Positions 2,634 to 24,880 of a stretch of 43,642 nt of DNA are shown piece after piece. Numbering within the stretch: the stretch's first letter is position 1; each line of letters opens with the position of its first letter. A program made the position numbers and the translations under genes. Under the pieces are notes generated by a model. The model saw only the letters and a list, made by a program, of their open reading frames with translations. It had not been told where the DNA came from and searched no databases. The stretch lies in the NCBI GenBank assembly GCA_945877595.1, contig CAMDVN010000015.1:1-43642 (forward strand), written 5' to 3'. This DNA is from Cyanobium sp. NIES-981. Lineage in GTDB: Bacteria > Cyanobacteriota > Cyanobacteriia > PCC-6307 > Cyanobiaceae.

Positions 2634-2745
2634 CGAAGCTGCACAACACAGCCTCGAATCTTAGGGAGTGATCCATGGCGGTCTCACCAACAGGTAGGGT
2701 TGACCGTTGTTATCTCGCTTCGCATCAGCGGCGCAACGTCCTTCC

Positions 2746-2940
2746 ATGGCTAAGAACAAGGGCGTCCGGATCGTGATCACTCTTGAGTGCACCGAATGCC
2801 GGTCCAATCCCGCCAAGCGGTCCCCCGGTGTGTCCCGTTACACCACCGAGAAGAACCGCCGCAACACAACCGAACGGCTTGAACTGAAAAAGTTCTGTCG
2901 CCACTGCAACTCCGCGACGGTCCACAAGGAGATCAAGTGA
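2746..2940 (+). CDS. rpmG: 50S ribosomal protein L33
   Basis: A 64-residue large-subunit ribosomal protein. The ATG at 2746 gives [18 protein letters not shown], the standard cyanobacterial and chloroplast L33 N-terminus; the frame stays open upstream but that extension does not look like L33. Two CxxC-type pairs (ECTEC near residue 15 and KKFCRHC near residue 50) suggest the zinc-binding form. It is followed after 86 bases by rpsR and then by an RNase II-type gene, an order I recall from related cyanobacteria and plastids. No strong Shine-Dalgarno is visible before the ATG. Confidence 0.96.
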
Positions 2941-3026
2941 CCTTGAGCTCAGGTCTGGTCTTCCGCTAGAGCTGAGCTGTCGCCGAATCTGCACCGACAT
3001 CCCTTTTCTGATTCTTCTGCCGTTCT

Positions 3027-3248
3027 ATGTCCAGCTCATTTTTTAAAAAGCGCCTCTCCCCGATCAAGCCGGGTGATCCGATCGACTACAAAGATGTCGA
3101 TCTGCTCAAGAAGTTCATTACAGAGCGTGGCAAGATCCTGCCCCGCCGTCTCACTGGGCTCACGGCCAAGCAGCAGCGCGATCTCACCAACGCTGTGAAG
3201 CGTGCCCGGATCGTGGCGATGTTGCCCTTTGTGAACCCCGAAGGCTGA
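3027..3248 (+). CDS. rpsR: 30S ribosomal protein S18
   Basis: A 73-residue small-subunit ribosomal protein that binds next to S6 on the platform. It has the S18 signature: [35 protein letters not shown], read here in two halves at about residues 19-38 and 39-53, followed by the basic [12 protein letters not shown] end. The ATG at 3027 gives [17 protein letters not shown]. It lies 86 bases after rpmG and only 35 bases before the exonuclease frame, so all three are probably co-transcribed. Confidence 0.97.
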
Positions 3249-3283
3249 GTCAGACCCTGGCAGTCGATTTCCACGCCGGCGAT

Positions 3284-5287: not shown

Positions 5288-5292
5288 GCAGT

Positions 5293-7152: not shown

Positions 7153-7273
7153 GGCGCTGGTCTGCATTGAGGTGCTGCTATGCATGGCGGGAATGCCGAA
7201 GGCCGATCTGCAAACGACGGTCCTTGCTGAACCGTTGGAAACACCAGCAGGAGCCTGGGTAAGATCCCGCTGC

Positions 7274-8815
7274 ATGTCTTACACCCTCACCACCCCGCTC
7301 TATTACGTCAACGACCGGGCCCACCTCGGCAGTGCCTACACCACCCTGGCCTGCGATGCCGTGGCCCGCTATCGGCGGCTCATCGGTGAATCCGTGCGGT
7401 TCATCACCGGCTGTGATGAGCATGGCCAGAAGATTCAACGGACGGCAGAAGCGGCCGGGGTTACGCCCCAGGCCCATTGCGACGCCGTCAGTGAGGGCTA
7501 TCGACAGCTGTGGGCCCGCTGGCAGATCACCAACGACCGCTTCATCCGCACCACTGACCCTCGCCATCGCTCCATCGTTGAGCAATTTTTCGCCAGGGTG
7601 GAGGCCCAGGGCGATGTGGTCGAAGGCCGTCAGCAAGGCTGGTATTGCGTTGCCTGCGAGGAATTCAAAGACGATCCCGCCGATGCCGAAGCGCCCAGCT
7701 GCTCGGTGCACCAGAAGCCCTTGGAATGGCGGGATGAGTGCAATCTCTTTTTCCGCCTCTCCCGCTACCAGGGCGAGATTGAAGCCCTGATTCGTCGGCC
7801 GGGATTCATTACGCCCGCCAGTCGCCGCCGCGAAGTCGAGAATTTTGTCGCCCAAGGTCTGCGCGATTTCTCGATCTCCAGGGTGGAGCTTCCCTGGGGA
7901 ATCCCGGTGCCGGGCCACGACGGCCATACGTTCTATGTGTGGTTTGACGCCCTGCTGGGCTACCTCACCGCCCTGCTGGAGGCCGATGACCCTGCAGACC
8001 TCAACCTTGTGACCCAGCGGGGCTGGCCGGCCCAGTTGCATGTGATCGGCAAGGACATTCTTCGCTTTCATGCGGTCTACTGGCCGGCGATGTTGCTCTC
8101 GGCAGGTCTCCCCCTGCCAGACAAGGTGTTTGGTCATGGCTTCTTGACCCGGGAGGGCCAGAAGATGGGCAAATCCCTTGGCAACGTGCTTGATCCCGAG
8201 ATGTTGCTGGAGCGCTGTGGCAGCGATGCGGTGCGCTGGTACCTTTTGCGCGACATCCCCTTCGGCGACGACGGCGACTTTCAACAGCAGCGGTTCCTTG
8301 ATCTGGTCAACAACGATCTGGCCAACACGATCGGAAACCTGCTCAACCGCACCTCCTCCATGGCCCGTCGCTGGTTTGAAGGCGGCGTGCCACCTGCCGG
8401 AGGAGCCGTTGAGCCCACGCATCCGCTGGCCCTGATCGCCGCAGCGTGCCGAGACCGCTACCGCCCAGCCATGGAGCAGCTCGATTTTCGGACTGCTGCT
8501 GAAGCCACCTTGGAGCTCGCCATCGCAGCCAACGGCTATCTCAATGAGCAGGCTCCCTGGAGTCGCATGAAGCAGGACGGCAACCGCGAACAGGTGGCTG
8601 CTGATCTCTATGCCGTGCTGGAGGCCACCCGCTGGGTGGCGCTGCTGTTGGCCCCAATCGTTCCTGATCTCAGTGGGCGCATGTTGGTGCAGCTGGCCCA
8701 GGACCCATCCTGGCCGTGGTGGGACGCACTGGTTTGGGGACGGCTTGAACCCGAATCACCGCTGCCTGAGCCGTCGCCTGTGATGGCCCGACTCGAGCTA
8801 GAGGAGCCCCTGTGA
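7274..8815 (+). CDS. metG: Methionine--tRNA ligase
   Basis: A class I synthetase that charges elongator and initiator tRNA-Met. The nucleotide-binding HIGH-type motif is HLGSAY at residues 17-22 and the KMSKS-type loop is KMGKS near 297-301. A connective-peptide knuckle with Cys residues (CVACEEF and SCSVHQ near 130-150) is present. At 513 residues it is the short form with no C-terminal dimerising tRNA-binding domain, as is common in cyanobacteria. The ATG at 7274 gives MSYTLTTPLYYVND; the frame continues upstream but that extension is antisense to the FAD gene. The stop overlaps the GTG start of lptC (GTGA), suggesting translational coupling. Confidence 0.96.
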   Translation: MSYTLTTPLYYVNDRAHLGSAYTTLACDAVARYRRLIGESVRFITGCDEHGQKIQRTAEAAGVTPQAHCDAVSEGYRQLWARWQITNDRFIRTTDPRHRSIVEQFFARVEAQGDVVEGRQQGWYCVACEEFKDDPADAEAPSCSVHQKPLEWRDECNLFFRLSRYQGEIEALIRRPGFITPASRRREVENFVAQGLRDFSISRVELPWGIPVPGHDGHTFYVWFDALLGYLTALLEADDPADLNLVTQRGWPAQLHVIGKDILRFHAVYWPAMLLSAGLPLPDKVFGHGFLTREGQKMGKSLGNVLDPEMLLERCGSDAVRWYLLRDIPFGDDGDFQQQRFLDLVNNDLANTIGNLLNRTSSMARRWFEGGVPPAGGAVEPTHPLALIAAACRDRYRPAMEQLDFRTAAEATLELAIAANGYLNEQAPWSRMKQDGNREQVAADLYAVLEATRWVALLLAPIVPDLSGRMLVQLAQDPSWPWWDALVWGRLEPESPLPEPSPVMARLELEEPL

Positions 8816-10011
8816 GCAAGACGTTCTTTGTGCGCAAGGAGGTCTTTTGCACGCGCCGTTCGCCCCGCTGGCTGTTGCTGGTCGGATTGTTGGGGCTTTC
8901 GATCGGCGGTTGTGGGGCCAGAGCACCGGAAGCACCGACCACCCGCGTCACCCCCTTCGTGTTTCGCTCGCTGAACCTGCGCCAGCAGGATCCCCAGGGA
9001 CGCACTGCTTGGGCTGTCACCAGTCCGGAAGCTCGTTATGACCTGTCCAGACGGGTTGCCCAGGCCCAGGATCTACGGGGCACGATCTACGCCCTTGGCC
9101 AGCCCCGCTACACCGTGCAGGCCAGCCATGGCACCTTGCTCAACGACGGCCAGGTCATCCAGCTCGAGGGCAAGGCCCAGATCCGCCGACTCGGCCCTGA
9201 CCCCGTGACCATCCAGGCCACTCGGATGCGCTGGTACCCCCGTCTCCAACGGATTGAGCTGGATCGCAATGCTGAGGCGATCGATGGAAACTTGCGCCTG
9301 TTGGCCACTCGGGCCCGTTTCCTGATCGATCGCGACACCCTGGAACTCCGGGGCAAGCCGGAGCTTCGCCGCCTGGGTAGCGGTGCCGCTGATTCGCCAG
9401 TGCGGGTGTTGCTGCAGCAGGCTGACTGGATGCCCACGAGCGGGGCCCTTGAGGCAAAGGGAGCGATCAAGGTGGTTCGCACCCTGCCGTCGCGCCAAAT
9501 CCAAACCCTGACGGCCTCTGGCCTTCGAGGCAATACCCAGGAGCGCACGCTGCTATTTCAGGCGCCGGTGGTCTTGGATGATCCCTCCCAGAAAGCCTGG
9601 CTCAGGGGCCAGGCCATCAGCATCAACCTCACGACCAACACCCTGCATTCAGCAACACCCTTCAGGGCGGCGTTCCAACAACTCCGCATCAAAGGGCAGT
9701 CCCTGCAGGTTGATCTCAACACGGCGACCGCCACGATTGGCTCGGGCTGCGAGGTGGACCAAGCCGACGGGAGCCTTCGAGCATCACGTTGCCTTTGGAA
9801 TTGGCAGCGCCAGTCGCTTGCGGCCAGCGGCGGAGTTGAACTGCGACGCACGGCCAACCGCCAGGTGACCCGCGCCAGTCAAATGGAGGGTCGACTCGGG
9901 CCCTCTGGACGCCTTGAGTTCCGTAGCCCCGGCTCAAGGGTTACATCACGGCTGCAGTTGCCGGGTCCAAAGCCAGGGGCTGCTGCGCAGAAGCCGACCA
10001 TTCGTCTTTGA
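8812..10011 (+). CDS. lptC: LPS export periplasmic protein LptC-like (lipoprotein)
   Basis: A predicted envelope protein of the LptC/YrbK family, which carries lipopolysaccharide from the LptBFG transporter to LptA. The N-terminus has a hydrophobic stretch ending in a lipobox-like GGCGARAP (Cys near residue 34), so it is probably a lipoprotein rather than the single-TM protein of E. coli. The body (about 45-380) is rich in beta strands with OstA-like repeats (ARYDLSRRVAQAQDLRG; LLNDGQVIQLEGKAQI; RFLIDRDTLELRGKPEL). At 399 residues it is about twice E. coli LptC, as in other cyanobacteria. The start is GTG, overlapping the metG stop. Its last 71 bases overlap the 3' end of the convergent ccb gene. 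Confidence 0.8.
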   Translation: MSKTFFVRKEVFCTRRSPRWLLLVGLLGLSIGGCGARAPEAPTTRVTPFVFRSLNLRQQDPQGRTAWAVTSPEARYDLSRRVAQAQDLRGTIYALGQPRYTVQASHGTLLNDGQVIQLEGKAQIRRLGPDPVTIQATRMRWYPRLQRIELDRNAEAIDGNLRLLATRARFLIDRDTLELRGKPELRRLGSGAADSPVRVLLQQADWMPTSGALEAKGAIKVVRTLPSRQIQTLTASGLRGNTQERTLLFQAPVVLDDPSQKAWLRGQAISINLTTNTLHSATPFRAAFQQLRIKGQSLQVDLNTATATIGSGCEVDQADGSLRASRCLWNWQRQSLAASGGVELRRTANRQVTRASQMEGRLGPSGRLEFRSPGSRVTSRLQLPGPKPGAAAQKPTIRL

Positions 10012-10627
10012 GCTTCAGGGCCCAGCCTTTGACCCAGGCTTGGTCACTGGTGCTAAAGCAACGGGCCGACCAGCCTCCCAGCACCAGCAGACCATTGCTG
10101 CCGATCGGCTGCACCAACACGCTGGGCAGATCGGCGAGGAGTGGCTCGAATTCGGCTCGGCCGGGATAGTGGCGCAGGTCAACCAAATGAATGGCGGCCT
10201 GCTTGACCAGGCACCGCTCACAGATCGATCCCGCAGAAAATGCTGACGGGGCGGGTTCCTGCTCTGGCAGCAGGCCGCGCTGCAAGACCATCTCACCCTT
10301 CCAGAGGACCGCCACCACAGCCGCCGGTGTGGCAGTCAGCAGCATCTGTGATCCCCAGGCCAGTTCACGCCGCAGCGACTCCTGCAGCGTGCTGGCCAGC
10401 ACAAGCCCCTGGCGGCCCTGGAGGTTGGCCCGTTGGGGCGCCTCGGGCACCACCTGAGTCCAGAGCAGCCCCACCAGCATCAGACCAACAGCCAACAAAC
10501 TGCCCAGCACCGAGGTGCGTTGCAGGGCCTGATCAGCTGCGGGCGACGCCAGTTGATTGCCGACCACGGTGACCAGGCCAAGGGCGCCGGCGGCCACCGT
10601 GATGCGCGCCGAGAGAGGAGTGGCCAT
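9941..10627 (-). CDS. Cofactor assembly of complex C subunit B (Ccb2/Ccb4-like)
   Basis: A 228-residue membrane protein related to plastid CCB2/CCB4, which help attach haem c(i) covalently to cytochrome b6. Two N-terminal hydrophobic segments (VAAGALGLVTVVG, about 11-24; SVLGSLLAVGLMLVGLLWTQ, about 39-58) are followed by a soluble domain. That domain holds the segments ELAWGSQMLLTATPA and VLVQPIGSNGLLVLGGWSAR, which I recognise from cyanobacterial members. A CxxC (ICERC, near 134) lies in the soluble part. The ATG at 10627 starts MATPLSARITVA. The last 71 bases are antisense to the end of lptC, so the two convergent transcripts overlap. The assignment rests on remembered family similarity. 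Confidence 0.75.
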   Translation of the reverse strand: MATPLSARITVAAGALGLVTVVGNQLASPAADQALQRTSVLGSLLAVGLMLVGLLWTQVVPEAPQRANLQGRQGLVLASTLQESLRRELAWGSQMLLTATPAAVVAVLWKGEMVLQRGLLPEQEPAPSAFSAGSICERCLVKQAAIHLVDLRHYPGRAEFEPLLADLPSVLVQPIGSNGLLVLGGWSARCFSTSDQAWVKGWALKLKDEWSASAQQPLALDPATAAVM

Positions 10628-10706
10628 CGCCTTGGGTCGTTATCGCCAATGTCCAGGATGCCGGATCGAGCTTTTGTTGCTGGAATAGGCCAGTGATCCT
10701 TAAACC

Positions 10707-11111
10707 ATGGATGCCCCCGAAGCGTTTGCAGCCATCTGCCTGGCAGCCGTTGGCTGTGACGGTCAGCTCGGCCGCGAGGAAGCCCAGGCCCTGAGAACCC
10801 AACTTGAGTTTCGCAGCCCCTTTCGCGACCTTGGGGAGCAGGCCATGGGGGATCTTTTTGATGGACTGCTGGAGATCCTGCGTACTGATGGCTGGTCAGC
10901 CCTGGTAACGGGTGCGATCCCTGCCCTTCAACCCCATCAGCGTGAAACAGCCCTGGCCTTGGCAGCCCAGCTGGTGCGCGCCGATCGCATCGTGCAGCCT
11001 GAGGAAACCGCCTTCCTCCAGGCCCTGGCCAGCCAACTCACCCTGCCCGAGGGCCGGGCCGATCAGATCCTTGAGGTGATTGCGGTGTTGCACCGCGATG
11101 CCCTTGCCTAA
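10707..11111 (+). CDS. TerB-family (tellurite resistance-like) helical protein
   Basis: A 134-residue, probably all-helical soluble protein of the TerB-like superfamily. The features seen are an acidic N-terminal helix with a possible metal-binding segment (VGCDGQLGREEAQAL, residues 15-29) and the repeat of that pattern later (VRADRIVQPEETAFLQAL, about 88-105). This internal duplication of (D/R)xxxxxEE is typical of TerB domains. Such stand-alone proteins are widespread in cyanobacteria and are not linked to tellurite; the function is unknown. It is 64 bases upstream of the psb32 start favoured here and on the same strand. Confidence 0.7.
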   Translation: MDAPEAFAAICLAAVGCDGQLGREEAQALRTQLEFRSPFRDLGEQAMGDLFDGLLEILRTDGWSALVTGAIPALQPHQRETALALAAQLVRADRIVQPEETAFLQALASQLTLPEGRADQILEVIAVLHRDALA

Positions 11112-11175
11112 ATTGACACGCCCAGCAGGGCAGACAGGTCGGCCAGCAAACGGCAAACTGGATGCACTTGGCCTT

Positions 11176-11919
11176 GTGGTCTTGCGCGTTTCAGCTCTTC
11201 GCTTCCATGCCAGGCGCTTCCATGCCTGGCACTCCCATGCCCGGCACTCCCTTGATGCCGCGCTTGCTGTCGCGCTTGGTGGCTTCATCCTCATGGTCGT
11301 GCTGTTGTTACCAGTGGCTCCCGTGCACGCCACGAGTGCCGCCGGCCTCCCCAGTGAACCGCCGACCAACCACGTGCTCGACGGTGCCGATCTGCTCAGC
11401 CGTGCTGCCGTGGCCGATGTGGCCCGCGGGCTTGAGCAGTTTTCACCCCAGCAGGTGCAGGCCAGCTGGGTCAGCGTGGATCGTCTCGACTATGGCCTTG
11501 GCTTGACCCAGCTGGGTGAGCAGCTTCTCGAACGCTGGAGCGGCGGCACTGATCAGAACCAGCTGCTGTTTCTGATTGACGGTCAGACCAGTGCCACCGC
11601 CATCGTGGCCTCGGCACCGTTGCAGCAACAGCTTGGAGCCGACCTGCTCAAAAGCACGGCTCGCACCACCATGGCCCAGCCTTTGCGTGAGGGCGCTCGC
11701 TATCGCCAGGCCAGCCTGGATGCGATGAACCGGATTGCCGTGGTGCTGGCCGGCGGAGCAGATCCCGGCCCGCCTGAGATCAACGCGGTGACTGTGCTTC
11801 CAACGCACATCCCCAGCCGTGAGGAAACGGAATCCAGCAATGCCTTTACCTGGGTGATTGTGCTGTTGGTGGTGGGCACCCTGGTGCCGATGCTCACGTG
11901 GTGGGTCTTCTCACGCTGA
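11176..11919 (+). CDS. psb32: TPM-domain photosystem II repair protein Psb32-like
   Basis: A membrane-anchored protein with a lumenal or periplasmic TPM domain. In Synechocystis the family member Psb32 protects photosystem II and speeds its repair. Visible here are an Arg/His-rich N-terminus, a hydrophobic signal (LAVALGGFILMVVLLLPVA), a cleavage-like VHATS, the TPM fold (NHVLDGADLLSRAAVADVA; SGGTDQNQLLFLIDG), and a C-terminal TM helix (FTWVIVLLVVGTLVPMLTWW). The start is uncertain. GTG 11176 gives a normal signal peptide. ATGs at 11080 and 11098 would overlap the terB-like gene and add a long non-family leader. A 15-bp tandem repeat at 11201-11245 lies in the n-region. It is followed 3 bases later by pxcA. 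Confidence 0.75.
   Translation: MVLRVSALRFHARRFHAWHSHARHSLDAALAVALGGFILMVVLLLPVAPVHATSAAGLPSEPPTNHVLDGADLLSRAAVADVARGLEQFSPQQVQASWVSVDRLDYGLGLTQLGEQLLERWSGGTDQNQLLFLIDGQTSATAIVASAPLQQQLGADLLKSTARTTMAQPLREGARYRQASLDAMNRIAVVLAGGADPGPPEINAVTVLPTHIPSREETESSNAFTWVIVLLVVGTLVPMLTWWVFSR
11201..11245 (+). repeat. Three tandem 15-bp units in the psb32 leader
   Basis: GCTTCCATGCCAGGC, GCTTCCATGCCTGGC and ACTCCCATGCCCGGC follow one another (11201-11215, 11216-11230, 11231-11245), with a weaker fourth unit. In the psb32 frame they encode RFHAR, RFHAW and HSHAR-like pentapeptides just before the signal hydrophobic stretch. Confidence 0.85.
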
Positions 11920-11922
11920 ACC

Positions 11923-13065
11923 ATGGCTTTCAACAATTGGATCGGCACGTTTGGCCGTGCCCAAGACGTCGACGTGAGCAATCAGCTCGAGCGGGGCTAT
12001 GAAGCTGCACTGCTGATCCAAAGCATTGAACTGGAGCACTACAAGGACCGCCCCGTGCGGCCCGAACTCGATCTGCGTTTGCCGAAGGCCACCCAGGCCC
12101 AGTTGATGCGCCGCTTCAAGGCTGCGCTTCAGGTCTGCCGTGATGTGATTGCAGAGCTCGAAGCCCACCGATCCGAGCTCTCGGGCCAAGAATCCAGGCA
12201 GCTGCAGCTGGTTGAGGATGTGGTGTCCCGCTACACCTCACGAAAGCCCTTGCCGGCCATCAGCCGCTCGCCTGAGGTCTTGCCACGGAGCTTGATCGGT
12301 GTTGTGGATCAGGTGCGGCGTCAGCTCGATCCTGAAGCTGAGGCGTCGATGGTCGCCGGGTTTCGGCGCCGCCGCGATTCCACCCTCGTCTCCCTGCGGG
12401 TGTTGTTGTTGTTGATCCTCGTTCCTGTGTTGGTGCAGCAGGCCAGCCGGTCGTTGGTGGTCTCTCCCCTGGTTGATCGCTATGCGCCCACCAGTGCATT
12501 CCTCAGCTATCCCAAGCCGAAGCTCGAGGAGCGGGCGGTTGAAAAGTTACGGGTCTTTCAGGCCGAAATCGAATTTGACGCCCTCTTGAAGGGGGATCCA
12601 ATTCCCGATCGCGAAGAATTGCAGAAGCAGTTGGCTTCCCGTGCCCAGATCCTCAAGGAGGAGGCCGATCAGGAGAGCACTGAGGAGATCAAGAATGTGA
12701 TCTCCGATCTCTTCGCACTGCTTGGTTTCGTCCTGGTGTGCGTGACTTGCAGTCGTGATCTTCAGGTGCTGCGTGGATTCATTGACGAGCTGGTCTATGG
12801 GCTCAGTGACAGCGCCAAAGCCTTTGCCATCATTCTGTTCACTGACATCTTTGTTGGATTCCACAGCCCAGAGGGTTGGACCGTTCTTCTCGATGGAGTT
12901 GCCCATCACCTGGGGGTGCCAGCCCGGGAGAATTTCATCATGCTGTTCATTGCCACGTTCCCTGTGGTGCTGGCGACCATTTTCAAGTACTGGATCTTCC
13001 GCTATCTGAACCGGGTTTCGCCGTCGTCGGTGGCCACCCTTCGAAACATGAACGGTGGTGGCTGA
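11923..13065 (+). CDS. pxcA: Proton extrusion protein PxcA (CemA homologue)
   Basis: A 380-residue membrane protein, homologue of plastid CemA, needed for light-induced Na+-dependent proton extrusion and indirectly for CO2 uptake. The soluble N-terminal part (about 1-160) includes VSNQLERGYEAALLIQSIE and LDLRLPKATQAQLMRRF. Then come TM segments near 163-187 (VSLRVLLLLILVPVLVQQ), 262-280 (VISDLFALLGFVLVCVTC), 295-315 (KAFAIILFTDIFVGFHSPEG) and 335-360 (NFIMLFIATFPVVLATIFKY). The C-terminal HSPEGW and FRYLNRVSPSSVATLRNMN are family hallmarks. It sits directly after psb32, and its stop overlaps the cobU start by 11 bases, so this looks like one transcript. Confidence 0.95.
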   Translation: MAFNNWIGTFGRAQDVDVSNQLERGYEAALLIQSIELEHYKDRPVRPELDLRLPKATQAQLMRRFKAALQVCRDVIAELEAHRSELSGQESRQLQLVEDVVSRYTSRKPLPAISRSPEVLPRSLIGVVDQVRRQLDPEAEASMVAGFRRRRDSTLVSLRVLLLLILVPVLVQQASRSLVVSPLVDRYAPTSAFLSYPKPKLEERAVEKLRVFQAEIEFDALLKGDPIPDREELQKQLASRAQILKEEADQESTEEIKNVISDLFALLGFVLVCVTCSRDLQVLRGFIDELVYGLSDSAKAFAIILFTDIFVGFHSPEGWTVLLDGVAHHLGVPARENFIMLFIATFPVVLATIFKYWIFRYLNRVSPSSVATLRNMNGGG

Positions 13066-13618
13066 CCCCCAGCGCTGCGTGCTGGTGAGTGGACCGGCGC
13101 GCAGCGGCAAAAGCGCTTGGGCCGAGACCTTGGCCGCAGCTTCGGGCCGTGCGGTGCACTACCTCGCCACAGGCCCCCATCGTCCAGACGACGAGGCTTG
13201 GCAAGAGCGGCTCCGCCGCCACCGTGAGCGCCGGCCGGCCAGTTGGGGATGCCAGGAGGTTGGCTTGCAGCTGGCTCCCGCCCTCAGCGCCTGCCCAGCG
13301 GGGCACCTGGCACTGGTTGATTCCTTGGGTACCTGGGTTGCCGCTGGTTTGCACCTCGATCAACCGGCCTGGCAAACCGCCTCTGACCAGTTGCTGGAGG
13401 CTCTGCAAGCCACCCCAGCCCGGGTGGTGTTGGTGGCTGAGGAGACCGGCTGGGGGGTGGTCCCTGCCACCGCAGTGGGCGGCCTATTTCGCGATCGACA
13501 GGGTCTGCTCCTGCAAGCGGTGATGCGCCTGTGTGATGGAGCCTGGCTGGTGCTGCACGGTCGGGCGATCAATCTCCTCGAGTTCAGCGTGCCGGTGCCT
13601 AGTACGGGGGCCTGGTGA
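13055..13618 (+). CDS. cobU: Bifunctional adenosylcobinamide kinase/adenosylcobinamide-phosphate guanylyltransferase
   Basis: This enzyme acts late in cobalamin synthesis. It phosphorylates adenosylcobinamide and then transfers GMP to build AdoCbi-GDP. The P-loop GPARSGKS is at residues 13-20. It is followed by the family blocks VHYLATGPHRPDDEAWQERL and RRHRERRPASW, the latter containing the His that carries the GMP intermediate in characterised CobU. Later come VDSLGTWVAAGL and LVAEETGWGVVPATAVGGLF. The GTG start at 13055 overlaps the pxcA stop, and its own stop overlaps the trmL start (GTGATG at 13615). With the riboswitch-hupE unit elsewhere in the window, it shows an active B12 pathway. 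Confidence 0.93.
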   Translation: MVADPQRCVLVSGPARSGKSAWAETLAAASGRAVHYLATGPHRPDDEAWQERLRRHRERRPASWGCQEVGLQLAPALSACPAGHLALVDSLGTWVAAGLHLDQPAWQTASDQLLEALQATPARVVLVAEETGWGVVPATAVGGLFRDRQGLLLQAVMRLCDGAWLVLHGRAINLLEFSVPVPSTGAW

Positions 13619-14097
13619 TGCCCCGTGTGGTGCTCTTCCAGCCGCAGATTCCGCCCAACACCGGCAATGTGGCCCGCACCTGCGCCGCGACAGCCACGGC
13701 GCTGCATCTGATCGAACCCTTGGGCTTTTCGCTTGACGACCGCCAGCTCAAGCGCGCTGGCTTGGACTACTGGCCCCTGGTCGATTTGGCGACCCATGCC
13801 AGCTGGAGTTGCTTCGATCAGCACCGCCGGCGGCAGGGTGGTCGTTTGATTGCCTTCAGTAGCCATGCGAGCCAGTTCTACACGGATTTTGACTACCAGC
13901 CCGACGACTGGCTTCTCTTTGGGCGTGAGACCGATGGCCTTCCGGTCGATCCCCTTCAGGCGTCCAATGCAAGACTCGTGATTCCAATGCGCCAGGCTGC
14001 CCGCCGTCAGCCCGGTGGCGTACGGTCCCTCAACCTGGCGTCCTCGGTGGCCGTCGTTTTGTTTGAGGCTCTGCGTCAGCTCGATGGTCTTGAGTAG
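13615..14097 (+). CDS. trmL: tRNA (cytidine(34)-2'-O)-methyltransferase
   Basis: A SPOUT-class methyltransferase that 2'-O-methylates the wobble nucleotide of tRNA-Leu isoacceptors. At 160 residues it consists of the bare catalytic domain. Motif 1 is PNTGNVARTCAAT (near 14-26), motif 2 is LLFGRETDGLP (about 100-110) and motif 3 is [15 protein letters not shown] (about 138-152), which together form the trefoil knot. Both GTG 13615 and ATG 13618 fit as starts, the first overlapping the cobU stop. It ends the pxcA-cobU-trmL run; a 149-base gap precedes the peptidase. Confidence 0.93.
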   Translation: MMPRVVLFQPQIPPNTGNVARTCAATATALHLIEPLGFSLDDRQLKRAGLDYWPLVDLATHASWSCFDQHRRRQGGRLIAFSSHASQFYTDFDYQPDDWLLFGRETDGLPVDPLQASNARLVIPMRQAARRQPGGVRSLNLASSVAVVLFEALRQLDGLE

Positions 14098-14246
14098 GCA
14101 AATCCCCCACCAGCACATGAGTCTCGCCCGGTTAAGCAGCCCTGATGTGATCTGGGTTGCTTGAACATTCAGGTTCAATGGGTTACTGTCTGGCCGACCT
14201 ACGGTTGTTGGCTTCTCCAGAGGATTTGTTCAATGAGTTGTGGTGC

Positions 14247-15269
14247 ATGAAGCCTTTGCATTGGTTCAGTCCTGTTTTGTTGCTGGTTCCAGTAGCCGTC
14301 CCTGTCGTGGTGACGGCCATGGGTCAGCCCCAGTGGGACCGCAGTGAGACCAACCAGTTGCAGGCTTCGTTGCCCGCGCCGAGCACCGATCGGGTTTGGG
14401 TTCGGGTTCGCCAGCCAGCTGGCTTGCCGGCACTCGCACAACTGCTGAATCTTCCCCAGGCCAAGCTGGCCAGCCTCAACGACGTCCAGGCTGACCATGA
14501 CTTCGATCAGGGTGATTGGTTGGTCCTGCCAGCTCAGAAGGTCCGACTCGCCAAACTGTTGCCTGAGATCGACAGCTCAGACCTGCGTCGCTCCCCCCCC
14601 CTGCACCAGCTCCCCCCGATGGAGCCCAATGGCGTCGTGAGGTTGGGTGACAGCCTTCGCAGGATCGCGTTGCGCTACGGCGTTACCCTGCAAGAGCTCG
14701 TCAAGCTCAATCCCGGCCTTGAAACAGCCCGCCTGGTGGTGGGAACTCCCATCCGCTTGGCGAACTCTGCACCTGCACGACAGCGGCTGCTGCTGGGGCT
14801 CAGGCCCACGGGTAGTGGTGGCTTGAGCTGGCCAGACTTGCCGGATTTCGGCCAAGACGACTCCCAGCAGGATCAGAATCTCTCCCAAGAGGGCTGGATT
14901 TGGCCCTCCAAGGGCATGTTCAGCTCTGGGTATGGCTGGCGCTGGGGGCGAATGCACAAAGGCATCGACATCGCCAACAATGTGGGCACCAGTGTGGTGG
15001 CCGCCAAGGCAGGTCGAGTTAGCGCTTCGGGCTGGCACGATGGGGGTTATGGATACAGGGTGGTGATTAGCCACGATGATGGCAGTCACTCGCTTTACGC
15101 CCACAACAGCCGACTTCTGGTCAAAGAGGGCCAGGAGGTGGAGCAAGGCCAGCCGATCGCGGCCATGGGCAGTACGGGTCGAAGTACGGGGCCCCATCTC
15201 CATTTCGAGATCCACCCCCCCGGTCGAGGGGCGGCCAATCCCCTTCAGTTTCTGCCTCAGCGGGCCTGA
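14247..15269 (+). CDS. LysM and M23 (LytM-type) peptidoglycan peptidase
   Basis: A secreted, probably wall-associated metallopeptidase. The ATG at 14247 gives MKPLHWFSPVLLLVPVAVPV, a clear signal sequence; the frame continues 90 bases upstream but adds only a poor leader. A degenerate LysM-like segment (LPALAQLLNLPQAKLASLN) is followed by a good LysM (LGDSLRRIALRYGVTLQELV), then a linker rich in Gln/Asp. The C-terminal M23 domain has the zinc ligands of MHKGIDI (H237, D241) and HLHFE (H317, H319). Such proteins cut peptide cross-links or activate amidases at septation. It is the last gene before the tRNA-Met locus. Confidence 0.92.
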   Translation: MKPLHWFSPVLLLVPVAVPVVVTAMGQPQWDRSETNQLQASLPAPSTDRVWVRVRQPAGLPALAQLLNLPQAKLASLNDVQADHDFDQGDWLVLPAQKVRLAKLLPEIDSSDLRRSPPLHQLPPMEPNGVVRLGDSLRRIALRYGVTLQELVKLNPGLETARLVVGTPIRLANSAPARQRLLLGLRPTGSGGLSWPDLPDFGQDDSQQDQNLSQEGWIWPSKGMFSSGYGWRWGRMHKGIDIANNVGTSVVAAKAGRVSASGWHDGGYGYRVVISHDDGSHSLYAHNSRLLVKEGQEVEQGQPIAAMGSTGRSTGPHLHFEIHPPGRGAANPLQFLPQRA

Positions 15270-15313
15270 TCACCCAAAACCCAAAGCCCCGATCGTCTAA
15301 GATCAAATCACCC

Positions 15314-15387
15314 GGCTCGGTAGCTCAGCTGGTTAGAGCGTGGGATTCATAACCCCAAGGTCGGGAGTTCAAGTCTCCCCCGAGCCA
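15314..15387 (+). tRNA. tRNA-Met (CAT), elongator type
   Basis: A 74-nt cloverleaf. The acceptor stem is GGCTCGG (15314-15320) with CCGAGCC (15380-15386) and discriminator A at 15387. The D arm is GCTC...GAGC. The anticodon stem and loop read TGGGA-TTCATAA-CCCCA with anticodon CAT at 15348-15350. The T arm is GGGAG-TTCAAGT-CTCCC. The innermost anticodon-stem pair is an A-C mismatch. CCA is not encoded. The full seven-pair acceptor stem with a normal first pair argues for elongator rather than initiator; a tRNA-Ile with modified CAT is less likely. The 3' half is repeated at 17003. Confidence 0.95.
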
Positions 15388-15402
15388 TAGTCTTTCCTCA
15401 AG

Positions 15403-15425
15403 CCCTGCTCCGGCGGGGTTTTTTA
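15403..15425 (+). terminator. Rho-independent terminator of tRNA-Met
   Basis: A short stem CCCTG/CGGGG around the loop CTCCGG (15403-15418) is followed at once by a run of T (15419-15424). It begins 15 bases after the tRNA 3' end. A diverged copy of the same hairpin follows the tRNA fragment at 17060-17083. Confidence 0.7.
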
Positions 15426-16061
15426 TTACCTGAGACTGTGATGTTCGATGGTGAAACGCCCCCATCTCGCTTAGTGATCTTGATTTGAGGAACGTTGTTA
15501 AATAAGCGCCCATACGTCAAACCGAAGGCTCCGAGGCCAGCCCATCTCTGGTCGCAAGCCAATGACCAGCAGGTTGCAGCGCCCATGGCGTAGGTCACCG
15601 GCGCGGGGCCCTTACCGTGATCAATCTGTCGACGCAACGCGTTCACTGCTAAGGGGTGTCAGCTGAGCCTTCGGGTGGTATCGGTATGGATGGAGTTTGA
15701 GCTCAGGGGAGGAAGGTGACACACCGACCCTGACGAGCTCCTACCCCTTGTTCAGCTCAACATGGTGGGATTACACGCCCCGATGACGTCAATGGCCAGA
15801 TGAACAGCCATCAGCTTGATCTTCCTACGTTCGTCTGTTAGTAACCGTGGTGGTAGTGACTGGGAAGGCTGAGGGGGGTGTGCAGCGCTTGCTCATTGCT
15901 GGAAACCCAACTCAGGGTCGACACATCACCCCAGAAGTTAGCCATGGCTACTTTCCACAACGATCGAGTCCAGGCCAGATTGGCTTCACATCGTAGCCAT
16001 TCAATTTGACTGGACCAGATGCTAAAATTAAACTCAACAAAACCATCTCAGTCCCTATTCA
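15426..16061. other. Gene-poor stretch between tRNA-Met and the lipoprotein gene
   Basis: About 640 bases with no gene I can support. Open frames here are short and do not look like proteins; the best, on the minus strand at 15398-15646, runs across the tRNA terminator. It is probably decayed island DNA, as it lies between the tRNA-Met gene and the repeated tRNA end. No integrase, transposase or inverted repeat remnant could be recognised by eye. Confidence 0.5.
16006..16034 (+). promoter_or_regulatory. Possible sigma-70-type promoter of the lipoprotein gene
   Basis: TTGACT (16006-16011) is separated by 17 bases from TAAACT (16029-16034), 28 bases before the ATG at 16062. The -35 matches five of six consensus bases and the -10 four of six. 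The surrounding bases are AT-rich compared with the rest of the window. This is an inference from motif match only. Confidence 0.35.
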
Positions 16062-16499
16062 ATGAAGTTCCTTAAGGCGGCAGTCGCCATGGCCTTGATG
16101 ATAGCCTTGACAAGTTGTAAGGGTTCAGAATCTAACTCACCCGAACCGGCACCTCCAACGGCCGAGACTATCTCAATGGAAACTGCCTGCACGGAGATAA
16201 AGCCACTCCTGAGTCAAATTAATGAGACTATGGATACGGCGGCGAAGAATAATGCTGAACCAGATGACCCGGCCGTTTTAGAAGAATTTCAGTCCATTGC
16301 AGATAAAATTGGTGGCATTGGTGAGCGAATTGAGACGGAAGAAGGAGCGGCTCTAGCGCAGGAAATCGCCAATTCCTATACACAAATGTTCGAGGGATTT
16401 TCAAAGCGTGAACCACCCTCTGATAGTACGGTAAAAACGATTTCTCAAGCGGTGGACAACTTTGTTCTTGCATGCGATGGCCCTCCCAGTGAGAATTGA
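16062..16499 (+). CDS. Putative lipoprotein of unknown function
   Basis: A 145-residue predicted lipoprotein. The N-terminus MKFLKAAVAMALMIALTSCK is a textbook lipoprotein signal with the lipobox LTSC (Cys19). A Ser/Pro/Glu-rich linker follows, then a small acidic, probably helical domain with two cysteines (CTEI near residue 44 and LACDG near the end) that could pair. I do not recognise a family. Codon use is visibly more AT-rich than the neighbours (AAT, GAA and TTA are common), and the gene is the only one between the tRNA-Met gene and its repeated 3' end. It may therefore have arrived with the integrated element. The coding call rests on the signal peptide and the consistent frame. Confidence 0.7.
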   Translation: MKFLKAAVAMALMIALTSCKGSESNSPEPAPPTAETISMETACTEIKPLLSQINETMDTAAKNNAEPDDPAVLEEFQSIADKIGGIGERIETEEGAALAQEIANSYTQMFEGFSKREPPSDSTVKTISQAVDNFVLACDGPPSEN

Positions 16500-17002
16500 G
16501 TTCTCGATGCATTGTAAAGTCAGGGACATGATTCTCCTCCCCTGGGGTAAGCAATGGCCTGGGTCATCCAGCTCCTCCCTGGGCGTGTTTTAAAAAAGAG
16601 CACGACAGTGCCTCTTAAGTGGTGCAATGCAAGAGCTCCTGTAGCCCTTTCAGGAGGGTGAACAGGAGCAGTTATGGGTAGCTGCCACGAGGCTGATTGC
16701 AGAGCTCGGTTCATCCGCCACGAATCCGGATCGCTGAATGTCGAACTCAATGATCCATGAGTATGCAGATCGAGAGAGGCGCCGGTGCGGTGACCGAATG
16801 GCTACTCGCCAGCTGAACAAGGGCTGAGTCGTAGGGAACGTTGCCGACCACGCTGCTGCGCCGCTGGTCGGTAGGTTGTTGCGGCGGCCGGCACCGAACA
16901 GCGGCAGGTGCTGGGGGAAGACCTGTCAGAAACAGTCGCAAGGGGACAGAGTTACGACCAGAGTCCAGCATTTGCAACGGATCTGCCAGGATAGCGCTGT
17001 GC
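16500..17002. other. Gene-poor stretch before the tRNA-Met 3' repeat
   Basis: About 500 bases with no convincing gene. Short frames exist on both strands but have no recognisable domain and no good ribosome binding site. It reads as decayed DNA of the same element as the stretch after the tRNA. No terminal repeats or recombinase motif were visible. Confidence 0.45.
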
Positions 17003-17083
17003 TTCATAACCCCAAGCTCGGGAGTTCAAATCTGCCCTGAGCCATAGGTTTTTCTCCGGCTCTGCTCCAGCGAGGTTTTTTTA
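17003..17083 (+). repeat. Diverged copy of tRNA-Met 3' half plus terminator (att-like repeat)
   Basis: Bases 17003-17044 match the tRNA-Met from its anticodon loop to the discriminator base (15346-15387) at 38 of 42 positions. The resemblance continues through the ATAG after the tRNA and the terminator hairpin (CTCTG-CTCCAG-CGAGG, then a T run). The acceptor 5' strand and D arm are missing, so it is not a working tRNA. An intact tRNA followed downstream by a copy of its 3' end is the usual result of tyrosine-recombinase integration at a tRNA gene. The four changes in the tRNA part and the broken terminator pairing suggest the copy is old. Confidence 0.85.
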
Positions 17084-17241
17084 TGTCTGGACTGGGAACT
17101 AGGCCCATCGAATCAGCGCCTTGCTAAGAGGAGACAGTTTCTGAGCTCGTCAACGGCCATCAGCGTCTCGACCCCAGCTCCTTCAACCAGATCAGCTTGG
17201 CGTTTTGCCAGGTGATTTTTCATTGCTTCTGCACTCGAACC

Positions 17242-18726
17242 ATGACGACCAACTTGACCCTCCCATCGATTGCTGGCAATGAAGCCGAAATCCTTGCACT
17301 TGTTCAGCAAAAAAATTCTGTTTTCTCAAAGCACACCAACCTAAAGCTGGAGGATTTTCAGTCAGCCTTTGCCTGTGCTCTCCATATGCATCAGCCCACA
17401 ATTCCGGCGGGGTTGAATGGAGAACTTGTCTCCCATTTGCAATACATGCTGGAGCATAGCAACGAGGGCGACAATCACAATGCTGAGCCCTTTGCTCACT
17501 GCTACAAGCGGCTTGCTGAGATTATCCCCCAATTGATTCGAGAAGGATGCAATCCTCGGATTATGCTGGATTACTCGGGAAACTTGCTCTGGGGCTTTGA
17601 GCAAATGGGCCGCCACGACATCATCGAGGCACTGAAATGTCTCACGTGCGATCCCGTTGTTCAACCGCATGTGGAATGGCTCGGAACATTTTGGAGCCAT
17701 GCCGTTGCTCCCTCCACCCCGATCCCAGATCTGAAACTACAGATCTTGGCATGGCAACACCAATTTGCTGCCATGTTTGGCCGAGAGGCGCTGCGACGCG
17801 TCAAGGGCTTCTCGCCTCCAGAAATGCACCTTCCCAACCATCCCGACACGCTCTTTGAAATGGTCAAAGCCCTCAGAGACTGTGGCTACCGGTGGTTGCT
17901 GGTTCAGGAACACAGCGTTGAGAACCTCGATGGCACAAGCCTGGGTCATGGGCAGAAATATACCCCCAACCAATTGGTCGCACGCAACTCCAAGGGGGAA
18001 ACAGCCACCATCCTGGCTCTGATCAAGACCCAGGGCTCAGATACTAAACTTGTCGGACAGATGCAGCCCTATTACGAGGCTTTAGGTCTGGGACGACAAT
18101 CGCTCGGCGAGAGAACGATTCCATCCTTGGTCTCCCAAATTGCGGATGGCGAAAATGGTGGGGTCATGATGAATGAGTTTCCACAAGCCTTTATTCAGGC
18201 CCATCACAGGATTGCTTCCCAGGCTGGTCTGCAGAGCACAGTTGCGATCAACGGCACAGAGTACTTGGAGTTACTGGAGGCTGCCGGTGTTGAAGAGTCA
18301 CACTATCCGAAGATTCAGGCCATTCAGCAACATAAGGTTTGGCATCATTCGACCCGTCCAACGACCCCGGAATCGATCGAAGCCACCATCGTCGACCTCA
18401 AGGCGACAGACCCATCGTTCACCATGGCCGGTGCCTCATGGACCAACAACCTCAGTTGGGTGGAGGGCTACGACAACGTGCTGGAACCGATGGCTCGCCT
18501 CAGCGCTCAGTTTCACCAAGTCTTTGATCCCTTGGTCGCCATGGATCCTGCTGTGACCCAAACACGTCACTACCAAGAGGCGTTGCTCCACGTGTTGCTG
18601 CTGGAAACCAGTTGTTTCCGCTATTGGGGTCAGGGCACCTGGACTGACTACGCCACTGAGATCCACCGGCGTGGTGAAGCGTTGATTGAGCAGGTAACGG
18701 GCAAATTGGCGGCACTAGCTCAATGA
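17242..18726 (+). CDS. Glycoside hydrolase family 57-type protein
   Basis: A 494-residue protein with a GH57-type (beta/alpha)7 barrel. GH57 enzymes act on alpha-glucans such as starch or glycogen (amylase, branching enzyme, 4-alpha-glucanotransferase). The first conserved region is ALHMHQPTIPAG (near residue 47-58). The likely nucleophile region is GFSPPEMHLPNHPD (about 190-203). GGVMMNEFPQAF (about 310-321) stands near where the acid/base is expected, but the usual Asp is not obvious there. The substrate is therefore open. Homologues of this subtype are common in cyanobacteria as stand-alone genes. I chose ATG 17242 (MTTNLTLPSIAGNEAEI); the frame upstream adds a Cys/His-rich leader that does not fit. 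There is no signal peptide. It lies just outside the tRNA repeat. Confidence 0.82.
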   Translation: MTTNLTLPSIAGNEAEILALVQQKNSVFSKHTNLKLEDFQSAFACALHMHQPTIPAGLNGELVSHLQYMLEHSNEGDNHNAEPFAHCYKRLAEIIPQLIREGCNPRIMLDYSGNLLWGFEQMGRHDIIEALKCLTCDPVVQPHVEWLGTFWSHAVAPSTPIPDLKLQILAWQHQFAAMFGREALRRVKGFSPPEMHLPNHPDTLFEMVKALRDCGYRWLLVQEHSVENLDGTSLGHGQKYTPNQLVARNSKGETATILALIKTQGSDTKLVGQMQPYYEALGLGRQSLGERTIPSLVSQIADGENGGVMMNEFPQAFIQAHHRIASQAGLQSTVAINGTEYLELLEAAGVEESHYPKIQAIQQHKVWHHSTRPTTPESIEATIVDLKATDPSFTMAGASWTNNLSWVEGYDNVLEPMARLSAQFHQVFDPLVAMDPAVTQTRHYQEALLHVLLLETSCFRYWGQGTWTDYATEIHRRGEALIEQVTGKLAALAQ

Positions 18727-18842
18727 TGCTTACGCATTAACCCATTGATTTTGATGCAGCTGATGTGCTCCTCGTGTGATGCTGCGAGCTTTGCTGATGA
18801 GATCTTGTTTAGCCTTTTCAAGGTGTTTATACCACATTGGCA

Positions 18843-19655
18843 ATGGCCAAGATCTCACGCTTTCCAGCTCGTCTTCGCAACATTGCACTGGTAGGTGCGG
18901 CAGTCACCCTCTCACAGGTGACACTCTTCAGTGGTGGCGCTCAAGCGCTAACTGTCGATAAGATGATCTTCTTCTCGACCGATGTATCAGGCAGTATCGA
19001 TAGCGGCGAGTATGATACTCAGCGCCTCGGATGGGCCAATGCGTTCTTAACGCCTTCGATTAAATCCTCAATCGTTGCTGCCCCCAATGGAATCGCTGTC
19101 GCCGTGGGTCAGTGGGATACTGTCGCTCGTTCACCTTTGTCTATCGATTGGACGCATCTGACGGATGCAGCAAGCGTTGATGCTTTTTCGGCCCAATTTG
19201 CCGCGATGTTGCGTCAGGGTTCAGGTACGACCTGTATTTCATGCGGTCTCAATGCAGCCGTAAATTCGATTCAGGCTGCCGTTAGCAGTGGTCTCTTTGA
19301 TTCTGGCTCCAAGATCATTGATATTTCGGGTGATGGAGTCGACAACCAGTCGTCGGATGCACAGGTTCAAGCAGCTCGTGACCTCGCCGCGAGCCTCGGC
19401 ATTGGTGTGAATGGCTTGGCCATTGAAGGGGACTTCGGCCCTACGGGTGTTTCCGACTATTACCAGGCCAACGTCATCACACCCGGAGGATTCGTGGAGA
19501 CAGTCACTGGCTTCGGTGATTTTGAGACAGCTGCCACGATCAAGTTGGGCCGCGAGGTCAGTGATGTTCCTGGACCCCTTCCCCTCTTGGGTTTAGCCAT
19601 GGCCCTGGGATGGGCACGCCGGTTGCGGCAGCGCCTTGCCTGGTCTATGGGTTGA
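18843..19655 (+). CDS. Secreted DUF1194 (von Willebrand A-like) protein with PEP-CTERM-like anchor
   Basis: A 270-residue exported protein. A signal peptide (ALVGAAVTLSQVTLFSGGAQA) is followed by a DUF1194 vWA domain. The domain shows the MIDAS metal site DVSGSID (near 45-51) and later DISGDGVDNQSS and INGLAIEGD-type strands (here VNGLAIEGD). A Cys pair sits in TTCISCGLNAA. The C-terminus VPGPLPLLGLAMALGWARRL is a PEP-CTERM-like sorting tail: a P-rich motif, a hydrophobic helix, then basic residues. It implies processing by an exosortase and export to the surface. No exosortase or other PEP-CTERM gene is in this window. TTG 18837 is an alternative start. The role is unknown; ligand or surface binding is an inference from the vWA fold. 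Confidence 0.8.
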   Translation: MAKISRFPARLRNIALVGAAVTLSQVTLFSGGAQALTVDKMIFFSTDVSGSIDSGEYDTQRLGWANAFLTPSIKSSIVAAPNGIAVAVGQWDTVARSPLSIDWTHLTDAASVDAFSAQFAAMLRQGSGTTCISCGLNAAVNSIQAAVSSGLFDSGSKIIDISGDGVDNQSSDAQVQAARDLAASLGIGVNGLAIEGDFGPTGVSDYYQANVITPGGFVETVTGFGDFETAATIKLGREVSDVPGPLPLLGLAMALGWARRLRQRLAWSMG

Positions 19656-19665
19656 GCTGAATCTT

Positions 19666-20274
19666 TTATCGCATCTCGATGGCATTGAGGCGGTCACGAA
19701 AACTGGCCGATCCAGCCTCATCGGCCGTTTCATTGCCATCGAACCCGGCTCGAGACTGCGGCTCGGTCTCGACCATGGCGATCACAGGAATCGGCATGAA
19801 AGTGTCGTACGACGAATCGGCTGAATAGGCCGTGTCGGTGGACGCATTCCCAGGGGCATAGCCCCTGCCCACCTGGTTGCTCCGACCCCGGCCAAGGCGA
19901 ACCTTGCTACCAGTACTGGTTCGCCCAAGGCCACTTCCAGAAACACGTCCAGCTTCACCGCCTGCACCACGTCCTGCAGCACCACCTGCAACGCTGAGAG
20001 AGCCAGCACCAGTTCCACTGCCTGGAGTGCCGGTTGCAGCGCTGCTCGTCACGCTTCCTGATTCGCCCGTGCTGCCCCGGCGTCCCCGTAGTTGTCCTCC
20101 GGAGCGACCCTCCATCACCCGGGTTAAGAAGCGGCTGCGGTTGACTTCACCGATGCTCTGTCCCTCCTGGGGACGCACCAGTGGATTGCCTTTGAGTTCA
20201 GAGCGCAACTGATTCAGCAGACGGAAGTGTCCCGTGGCGTTGTATTTACGCAGTAAAACGGGATCCCAGGCCAT
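19666..20274 (-). CDS. Cyanobacterial protein of unknown function with Gly/Ser/Arg-rich linker
   Basis: A 202-residue protein with two conserved-looking ends and a low-complexity middle. The N-terminus (MAWDPVLLRKYNATGHFRLL, NQLRSELKG) looks like a short helical domain I recall from many Synechococcus proteins. Residues about 55-140 are almost only Gly, Ser, Ala, Thr and Arg. The C-terminus (MPIPVIAMVETEPQSRAGF and ASFRDRLNAIEM) is again ordered. There is no signal peptide or membrane helix. The Arg/Gly-rich linker could bind nucleic acid or protein partners, but this is speculation. It is convergent with the DUF1194 gene (10 bases apart) and divergent from the peroxiredoxin gene (218 bases). 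Confidence 0.75.
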   Translation of the reverse strand: MAWDPVLLRKYNATGHFRLLNQLRSELKGNPLVRPQEGQSIGEVNRSRFLTRVMEGRSGGQLRGRRGSTGESGSVTSSAATGTPGSGTGAGSLSVAGGAAGRGAGGEAGRVSGSGLGRTSTGSKVRLGRGRSNQVGRGYAPGNASTDTAYSADSSYDTFMPIPVIAMVETEPQSRAGFDGNETADEAGSASFRDRLNAIEMR

Positions 20275-20492
20275 CAGTGGTTGATTTCGGTTTGTTCAGC
20301 CTATGGCGCCGGTCTCACCGGCTGCCGGAGCTCGACCCAGTGGCTCCCCCTCCATTCCCACAACCACGAGGCGCAGAGACGCATCAAGTTGTGATAGGTT
20401 GAAACAGTGCTAAGTGGTAGTCGATTCGACTTTGGCTTGATGCCAGTCGATGCGGCTCAGCACGGCCCCCTTCACTCTCTCCACTCATCACC

Positions 20493-21083
20493 ATGTCAAG
20501 GCTTGTCGGTCTGCCGGCCCCCGACTTCACCGCCACCGCTGTGGTGGATCAGGAATTCAAGTCGGTGACTCTTTCCCAGTACCGCGGCAAGTACGTGGTG
20601 CTGTTCTTCTACCCCCTGGATTTCACCTTTGTGTGTCCTACGGAGATCACCGCATTCTCTGATCGCTACGGCGATTTCTCAAGCCGCAACTGTGAGGTTC
20701 TTGGCGTGTCGGTCGACAGCCAGTTCAGCCATCTGGCATGGGTTCAAACGGAGCGGAAGAATGGCGGTCTCGGCGACATCGCCTATCCGCTCGTTGCCGA
20801 CCTCAAGAAAGAGATCGCCCGTGCCTATGAAGTGCTCGATGAAGAGGCCGGTGTGGCCCTGCGCGGTCTCTTCATCATCGACCCTGAGGGCGTGATCATG
20901 CAGTCCACCATCAACAACTTGCCCGTGGGCCGTAGCGTCGACGAAACCCTGCGCCTGCTGCAGGCCTTCCAGCACGTGCAGTCGCACCCCGATGAGGTCT
21001 GCCCGGCAAACTGGACTCCCGGTGACAAGACCATGAACCCCGACCCCGTGAAGTCCAAAGAGTTCTTTGCGGCGGTCAACTGA
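20493..21083 (+). CDS. 2-Cys peroxiredoxin
   Basis: A thiol peroxidase that reduces H2O2 and organic peroxides with electrons from thioredoxin. It is 196 residues, the typical Prx1 length. The peroxidatic cysteine is C48 in [13 protein letters not shown] and the resolving cysteine is C170 in [11 protein letters not shown]. The GGLG motif is at 91-94. The C-terminal helix carries EFFAAVN where over-oxidation-sensitive enzymes have a YF motif. The ATG at 20493 gives [17 protein letters not shown]. It is monocistronic: a 218-base upstream gap and a hairpin terminator at 21122-21143. Confidence 0.95.
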
Positions 21084-24185: not shown

Positions 24186-24233
24186 GGTGTCGGTCCGCGC
24201 CGAAGAAAAAGCCAAGGACATGTACAAAGCACC

Positions 24234-24350
24234 GGCGGGCGTTCTGACTTGATGGTCGGTCCATGATTGGGATCGAGCACCTTCACAGCTGCGGGACAGT
24301 GCCGGATTTGCACCGGACTTTCCCCGTTAACTCCGGGGACTGCTCCCCCC
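24234..24350 (-). promoter_or_regulatory. Cobalamin (AdoCbl) riboswitch
   Basis: Read on the minus strand, this leader shows the conserved core ACGGGGAAAGTCCGGTGCAA (about 24311-24330), then ATCCGGCACTGTCCCGCAGC and TGTGAAGGTGC. It ends with the B12 box AAGTCAGAACGCCCGCC (24234-24250). These blocks, in this order and spacing, define the cobalamin riboswitch. A GC-rich stem (TCCGGGGGGGAG... with CTCCCCCCC-like bases) lies at its 5' end. It is placed 13-50 bases before the possible hupE starts, so high B12 would be expected to shut off hupE and cobW. Exact boundaries are estimates. Confidence 0.9.
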
Positions 24351-24370
24351 CGGAACCGGACCTAGCGATG

Positions 24371-24880
24371 CTATCGGCACGCCAGACTTTCACGGGTGTT
24401 GACGCCGGTACGGGTGTTGATTCCCGTAGCCCGGGCGCAAAGGGCTTTTTGTTCGGTGAGATCGAGCACGGCGTCGCTGAAATCGGCTCCAGCGATGTCG
24501 CTTCCCTTGAAATGACTCTGCATCAACATGCCGTTGCGAAGAACGGCGTCCTTCAGATTGGCACCGTCGAAGCGGGTGGCGAAGGCGACGACATCCTCGA
24601 GATCGGCTCCTTGGAGATTGGCGCCTTGCAGATCACTGCTGTTGAAGACTGCACCGCGCAGATCGGCCTCGCTGAAATCAAAGCCCGCCATTGAGGCCTT
24701 GAGGAATTCCTGTTGCTGAAGGTTGCGGCCCTGCATGTTTGGGGTGAGATCTTGCAAGGACTTCTGGCCGCGCAGCTCGGGAGCTGTCATGGCCAGGGCG
24801 CTGGGGGCGACCTGGGTCATTAACAGAAGGGCAAAGACGGCAGCGAGCAGGCGGACCATCGGGCACATACGGTGGTTCAT
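24371..24880 (-). CDS. Exported pentapeptide-repeat protein
   Basis: A protein of about 169 residues with a signal peptide (MVRLLAAVFALLLMTQVAPS, cleavage near ALAM). A right-handed pentapeptide-repeat helix follows (FDFSEADLRGAVFNSSDL; QGANLQGADLEDV; FDGANLKDAVLRNGML; SDIAGADFSDAVL). Such proteins are frequent in cyanobacteria, often in the thylakoid lumen, with unknown roles. The C-terminus has a Cys-framed tail with a near-duplicate (GINTRTGVNTRE). Starts at 24880, 24868 and 24859 are possible; the frame further upstream is antisense to the next gene and was not used. It ends just before the riboswitch but on the same strand, so it may read into it. Confidence 0.82.
   Translation of the reverse strand: MNHRMCPMVRLLAAVFALLLMTQVAPSALAMTAPELRGQKSLQDLTPNMQGRNLQQQEFLKASMAGFDFSEADLRGAVFNSSDLQGANLQGADLEDVVAFATRFDGANLKDAVLRNGMLMQSHFKGSDIAGADFSDAVLDLTEQKALCARATGINTRTGVNTRESLACR

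Follow-up and report, generated by a model that had tools for sequence, protein, structure and literature searches.

We sought to identify the origin of a truncated tRNA repeat in Cyanobium sp. NIES-981, located within a 43,642-nucleotide stretch of DNA (contig CAMDVN010000015.1) that was analysed as a whole and is here called the window. ARAGORN and Rfam found a single intact tRNA at 15314-15387 on the plus strand, a CAT tRNA that is called tRNA-Met (elongator Met or Ile-CAT), and a displaced 3' fragment of it lies downstream in the same orientation. The initial annotation had described bases 17003-17044 as a repeat of the tRNA from the anticodon loop onward, with similarity running on into the terminator, and alignment confirmed both points. 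One ungapped direct repeat of 84 nt at 83% identity connects 15341-15424 with 16998-17081, and its tRNA part (15346-15387 versus 17003-17044, plus strand) is identical at 38 of 42 positions, with a BLAST E-value of 8e-13 when searched against 28 kb downstream. The similarity ends sharply immediately 5' of TTCATAA, and no tRNA 5' half was recognisable in the 45 nt upstream of the copy. At the other end the terminator after the intact tRNA (15388-15424) is matched by a terminator copy from 17045 to about 17081, and beyond the T-run a weaker similarity extends ~20 nt further. Searched genome-wide, the tRNA with its terminator matched only this displaced copy and, weakly, the initiator-type tRNA. 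Divergence between the copies is 10% in the tRNA part and ~24% in the terminator part, presumably because only one copy of the tRNA but both copies of the terminator were free to change.

A break inside the anticodon loop recurs in phages. An exact search of IMG/VR with the 42-nt tRNA 3' half matched three phage contigs, and in all three the match starts at the first base of TTCATAA, the same first base as in the window copy, with no tRNA 5' half before it and an integrase-like gene adjoining. The limits of the att core in the intact tRNA, that is its 3' half from 15346 on the plus strand, were taken from these contigs, and the terminator after the intact tRNA is identical to that of phage contig L113 at 27 of 29 positions. 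A search of viral contigs with a combined pattern of core, spacing and arm gave no match. Cyanophage P-SS2 carries a piece of the initiator-type tRNA with a terminator between bet and int, which has been published as a putative attP (PMC2784084).

Integrases of this phage type match nothing in Pfam, PF00589 included, and their alignment retains the tyrosine-recombinase residues R, HxxR-like, GH and Y as read by eye. A PF00589 search of 31 genomes found no integrase adjoining tRNA-Met, a result that is uninformative because the model is blind to the P-SS2-type family. The family was detected in relatives with an alignment of the three phage integrases, applied to 300 genomes. Eleven of the 12 best matches adjoin a CAT tRNA and one adjoins tRNA-Thr, while the loci fetched from a weaker group adjoin tRNA-Lys. 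The integrase lies downstream of the tRNA studied here in G014, G091, G173 (as fragments), G199, G211 and G240, and also in G028 with one gene between; in other genomes the best matches lie downstream of the initiator-type tRNA. Elements that insert into this tRNA are phage-like and occur in freshwater and marine cyanobacteria.

If the DNA beside the tRNA was acquired, then relatives should show the site without it. Three same-genus genomes (G001, G003 and G004) have an unoccupied site. In these, and in most other Cyanobiaceae loci examined, a homologue of the window gene at 19666-20274 (minus strand) lies no more than a few hundred bases beyond an M23 peptidase gene and the tRNA, and after it comes a peroxiredoxin, which in the window lies at 20493-21083 (plus strand); together these genes form the resident right flank (19666-21083). 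Since they directly follow the tRNA in most relatives, the extra DNA amounts to 4.3 kb, from 15388 to about 19669, and the displaced copy sits within it. Homology with the unoccupied genomes restarts at about 19670, and the insert has a G+C content of 53% against 64% and 61% on its two sides. The GH57 gene had been taken as the resident flank of the interval, and foreign DNA had been thought to extend only to 17083; the unoccupied relatives place GH57 within the extra DNA, and the foreign stretch reaches the resident genes. Further along the window, a cobalamin riboswitch (Rfam RF00174, 63.5 bits) was found at 24217-24374 on the minus strand, just upstream of minus-strand genes whose ends lie at 23565 and 22452.

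The part of the insert before the displaced copy (15447-17002), which is missing in relatives and has a G+C content of 53%, carries a small lipoprotein-like gene of 145 aa (16062-16499, plus strand) without a Pfam match, the odd gene that the initial annotation had correctly placed there together with the absence of a recombinase. Its family has five copies in this genome and four in G161, with no relative in the other 149 of 151 genomes searched. In at least one paralogue the similarity reaches about 70 nt beyond the gene on its upstream side, and no tRNA genes were found adjoining the paralogues. The part after the copy (17104-19669) is likewise missing at this place in relatives and holds a GH57 gene (17242-18726, plus strand) and a DUF1194 gene (18837-19655, plus strand). 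The nearest GH57 homologues belong to other genera (81%, versus 67-71% for full-length same-genus copies, around which no tRNA was found within 1.5 kb), and the best DUF1194 match (68%) is also from another genus. No recombinase was recognisable in 15388-19700, even by a family-specific HMM with all filters off; no transposase-like gene was recognised among the ORFs examined in the insert, and phage genes other than an integrase are likewise not left in it. Having no integrase, the insert is classed as a remnant and not as an element, as had been proposed.

Cargo at this tRNA varies among other genomes, its size ranging from roughly 1 kb up to almost 40 kb, so that the islands of other sizes predicted by the initial annotation were found, in several cases with the predicted integrase next to the tRNA; conservation of the same 1.6 kb, named there as evidence to the contrary, was not borne out, the same-genus genomes being without the insert. 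G014 carries a near-complete element of 21.4 kb with attL and attR. Its left end consists of this tRNA, a terminator, TGTCTG, arm sequence and integrase, and its right copy, 21.4 kb on, reads TTCATAACCC, a short deletion, and then TTCAAG through the terminator to TGTCTG, giving an exact repeat of 60 nt from TTCAAG to TGTCTG. The limits of this direct repeat indicate an identity block that spans the anticodon loop to just past the terminator, as in the window, which agrees with the earlier proposal that the crossover block exceeds the tRNA end. G215 has the initiator-type tRNA with an integrase and a displaced 3' half 64.8 kb away, and no distal repeats were found in the islands of G091 and G028. 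A terminator repeat found in G173 at 1.6 kb beyond the tRNA comes without any piece of tRNA, and we took it for an ordinary terminator. In G096 the tRNA is directly followed by one uninterrupted open frame of about 6020 codons (343-18405 downstream of it).

Taken with the phage attP candidates, the integrases beside this tRNA, the G014 element and the unoccupied sites, the repeat in the window is very probably a scar left when elements with a P-SS2-type tyrosine integrase integrated site-specifically at tRNA-Met, in line with the recombinase type first proposed. The attP of such an element would carry the 3' half of the tRNA, starting at the anticodon loop and in most cases backed by a terminator, so that recombination inside the block would at one end leave the tRNA whole and with a terminator, and would displace the old 3' half with its terminator to the other.

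We then considered whether one element or two had integrated. The displaced copy in G014 is followed by flank resembling the sequence directly after the tRNA in G140, whereas in the window arm-like ATGTCTGGACTGGGAACTAGG comes after it (17083-17103, plus strand, completing the att-type stretch 17045-17103). In comparisons with shuffled sequences, which concern short similarities and partners picked after the sequences were seen, ATGTCTGGACTGGGAACTAGG resembled the P-SS2 arm (p 0.002) and the G098 copies (p 0.000-0.001) but not resident flank (p 0.32-0.97). The arm-like stretch after the intact tRNA (15425-15446, which with the terminator forms a left-end type att sequence at 15388-15446, plus strand) is closest to a displaced G098 copy, with 0 of 2000 shuffles as good. 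The TGTCTGGGACTGGG region may be an arm site. Upstream of the displaced core, GGATCTGCC (16979-16987, plus strand), which lies 15 nt ahead of it, is a possible, weak candidate for a P-arm remnant, with p 0.006 to 0.18 in shuffles against individual sites and counterparts 14 nt before the core in P-SS2 and one G098 copy. In att-site terms the window thus has a core that begins at the anticodon loop and stops where the tRNA ends, a clear terminator, and an arm that is short but better than shuffles. G098 shares the window's architecture of a tRNA plus displaced 3' halves: its initiator-type tRNA is followed by four of them within 12 kb (2011-13815 of the locus), most with terminator and arm behind.

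Because arm-type sequence follows the intact tRNA as well as the copy, we favour two elements integrated successively, and on balance the 17003 copy is then likely to have been the left end of the inner element. The later element would have displaced the left end of the earlier one, and both would afterwards have shed their integrases together with most of their DNA, so that what survives is the lipoprotein gene in the outer remnant (15447-17002) and GH57 and DUF1194 in what is probably the inner one (17104-19669). A single element would instead make the copy an attR with the original host 3' half and terminator, GH57 and DUF1194 having already been present or having come in by other means, for example homologous exchange. 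Some island-free genomes (G167) do have a terminator after this tRNA, a third att piece could not be recognised near 19669, and the GH57 and DUF1194 homologues in the other genomes examined are not beside tRNA-Met; with arm-like sequence and not resident flank after the copy, we regard this reading as possible but rather doubtful. It is improbable, though conceivable, that the 1.6-kb unit is not what remains of a collapsed phage but a small cassette that has no integrase, holds one gene flanked on either side by an att junction, and was inserted by a phage integrase acting in trans. The same might hold for four units of 1.2-4 kb in G098 that are likewise bounded by att sequence, and if so, tRNA-Met genes would act as cassette arrays. 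Between the G098 copies we also noted ORFs resembling, by eye, prochlorosin-type precursor leaders and REP-type transposases. That the tRNA gene was duplicated in tandem and one 5' half then decayed, an alternative raised by the initial annotation as a refutation, is very improbable: such duplications do occur and the copy includes the terminator, yet its 3' half is 90% identical while the 5' half is missing, the break falls on the base where phage att cores start, foreign DNA separates the copies, same-genus genomes have no duplicate, and two full tandem tRNAs were seen here in no relative. Movement of the fragment by insertion-sequence activity, which has been reported close to tRNA-Met islands (PMC2784084) and would suit the transposase-like ORFs of G098, is hardly credible for an insert in which no transposase-like gene was recognised among the ORFs examined and whose breakpoint coincides with the att sites of integrase-bearing elements.

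Successive integration at tRNA-Met therefore remains the preferred reading, and the window holds a new, apparently double example of a scar type that is already well known. Tycheposons of Prochlorococcus carry variable cargo and occupy tRNA genes of picocyanobacteria by means of a tyrosine recombinase. The elements proposed here would resemble them in these traits, but the window retains no element machinery. The putative P-SS2 attP shares with the window the tRNA-Met 3' part from the anticodon loop, the terminator and the arm, and adjoins an integrase of the same family, while the variable tRNA-Met island of Prochlorococcus MIT9313 carries displaced pseudo-tRNA-Met copies (PMC2784084); P-SS2 differs in matching the initiator-type tRNA where the window uses the other CAT tRNA, and the window differs from both in that its copies are decayed and integrase and transposase are gone. 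Islander islands (PMC4383910) likewise combine an intact tRNA, a same-orientation displaced 3' fragment and an anticodon-type crossover, and tandem islands are known in that catalogue. The Islander filters would reject the window unit, which falls short of the 2-kb minimum and lacks an integrase. P-SS2-type integrases moreover lack the PF00589 match that Islander requires (PMC4383910), and island finders based on PF00589 would for this reason miss such elements. The locus links a hypervariable spot beside the picocyanobacterial tRNA-Met with one particular family of integrases and with the att site of that family, and suggests that elements integrated there repeatedly, one stacked on another. 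Across the genomes, this divergent family without a Pfam match sits just downstream of tRNA-Met, tRNA-fMet, tRNA-Lys or, once, tRNA-Thr.
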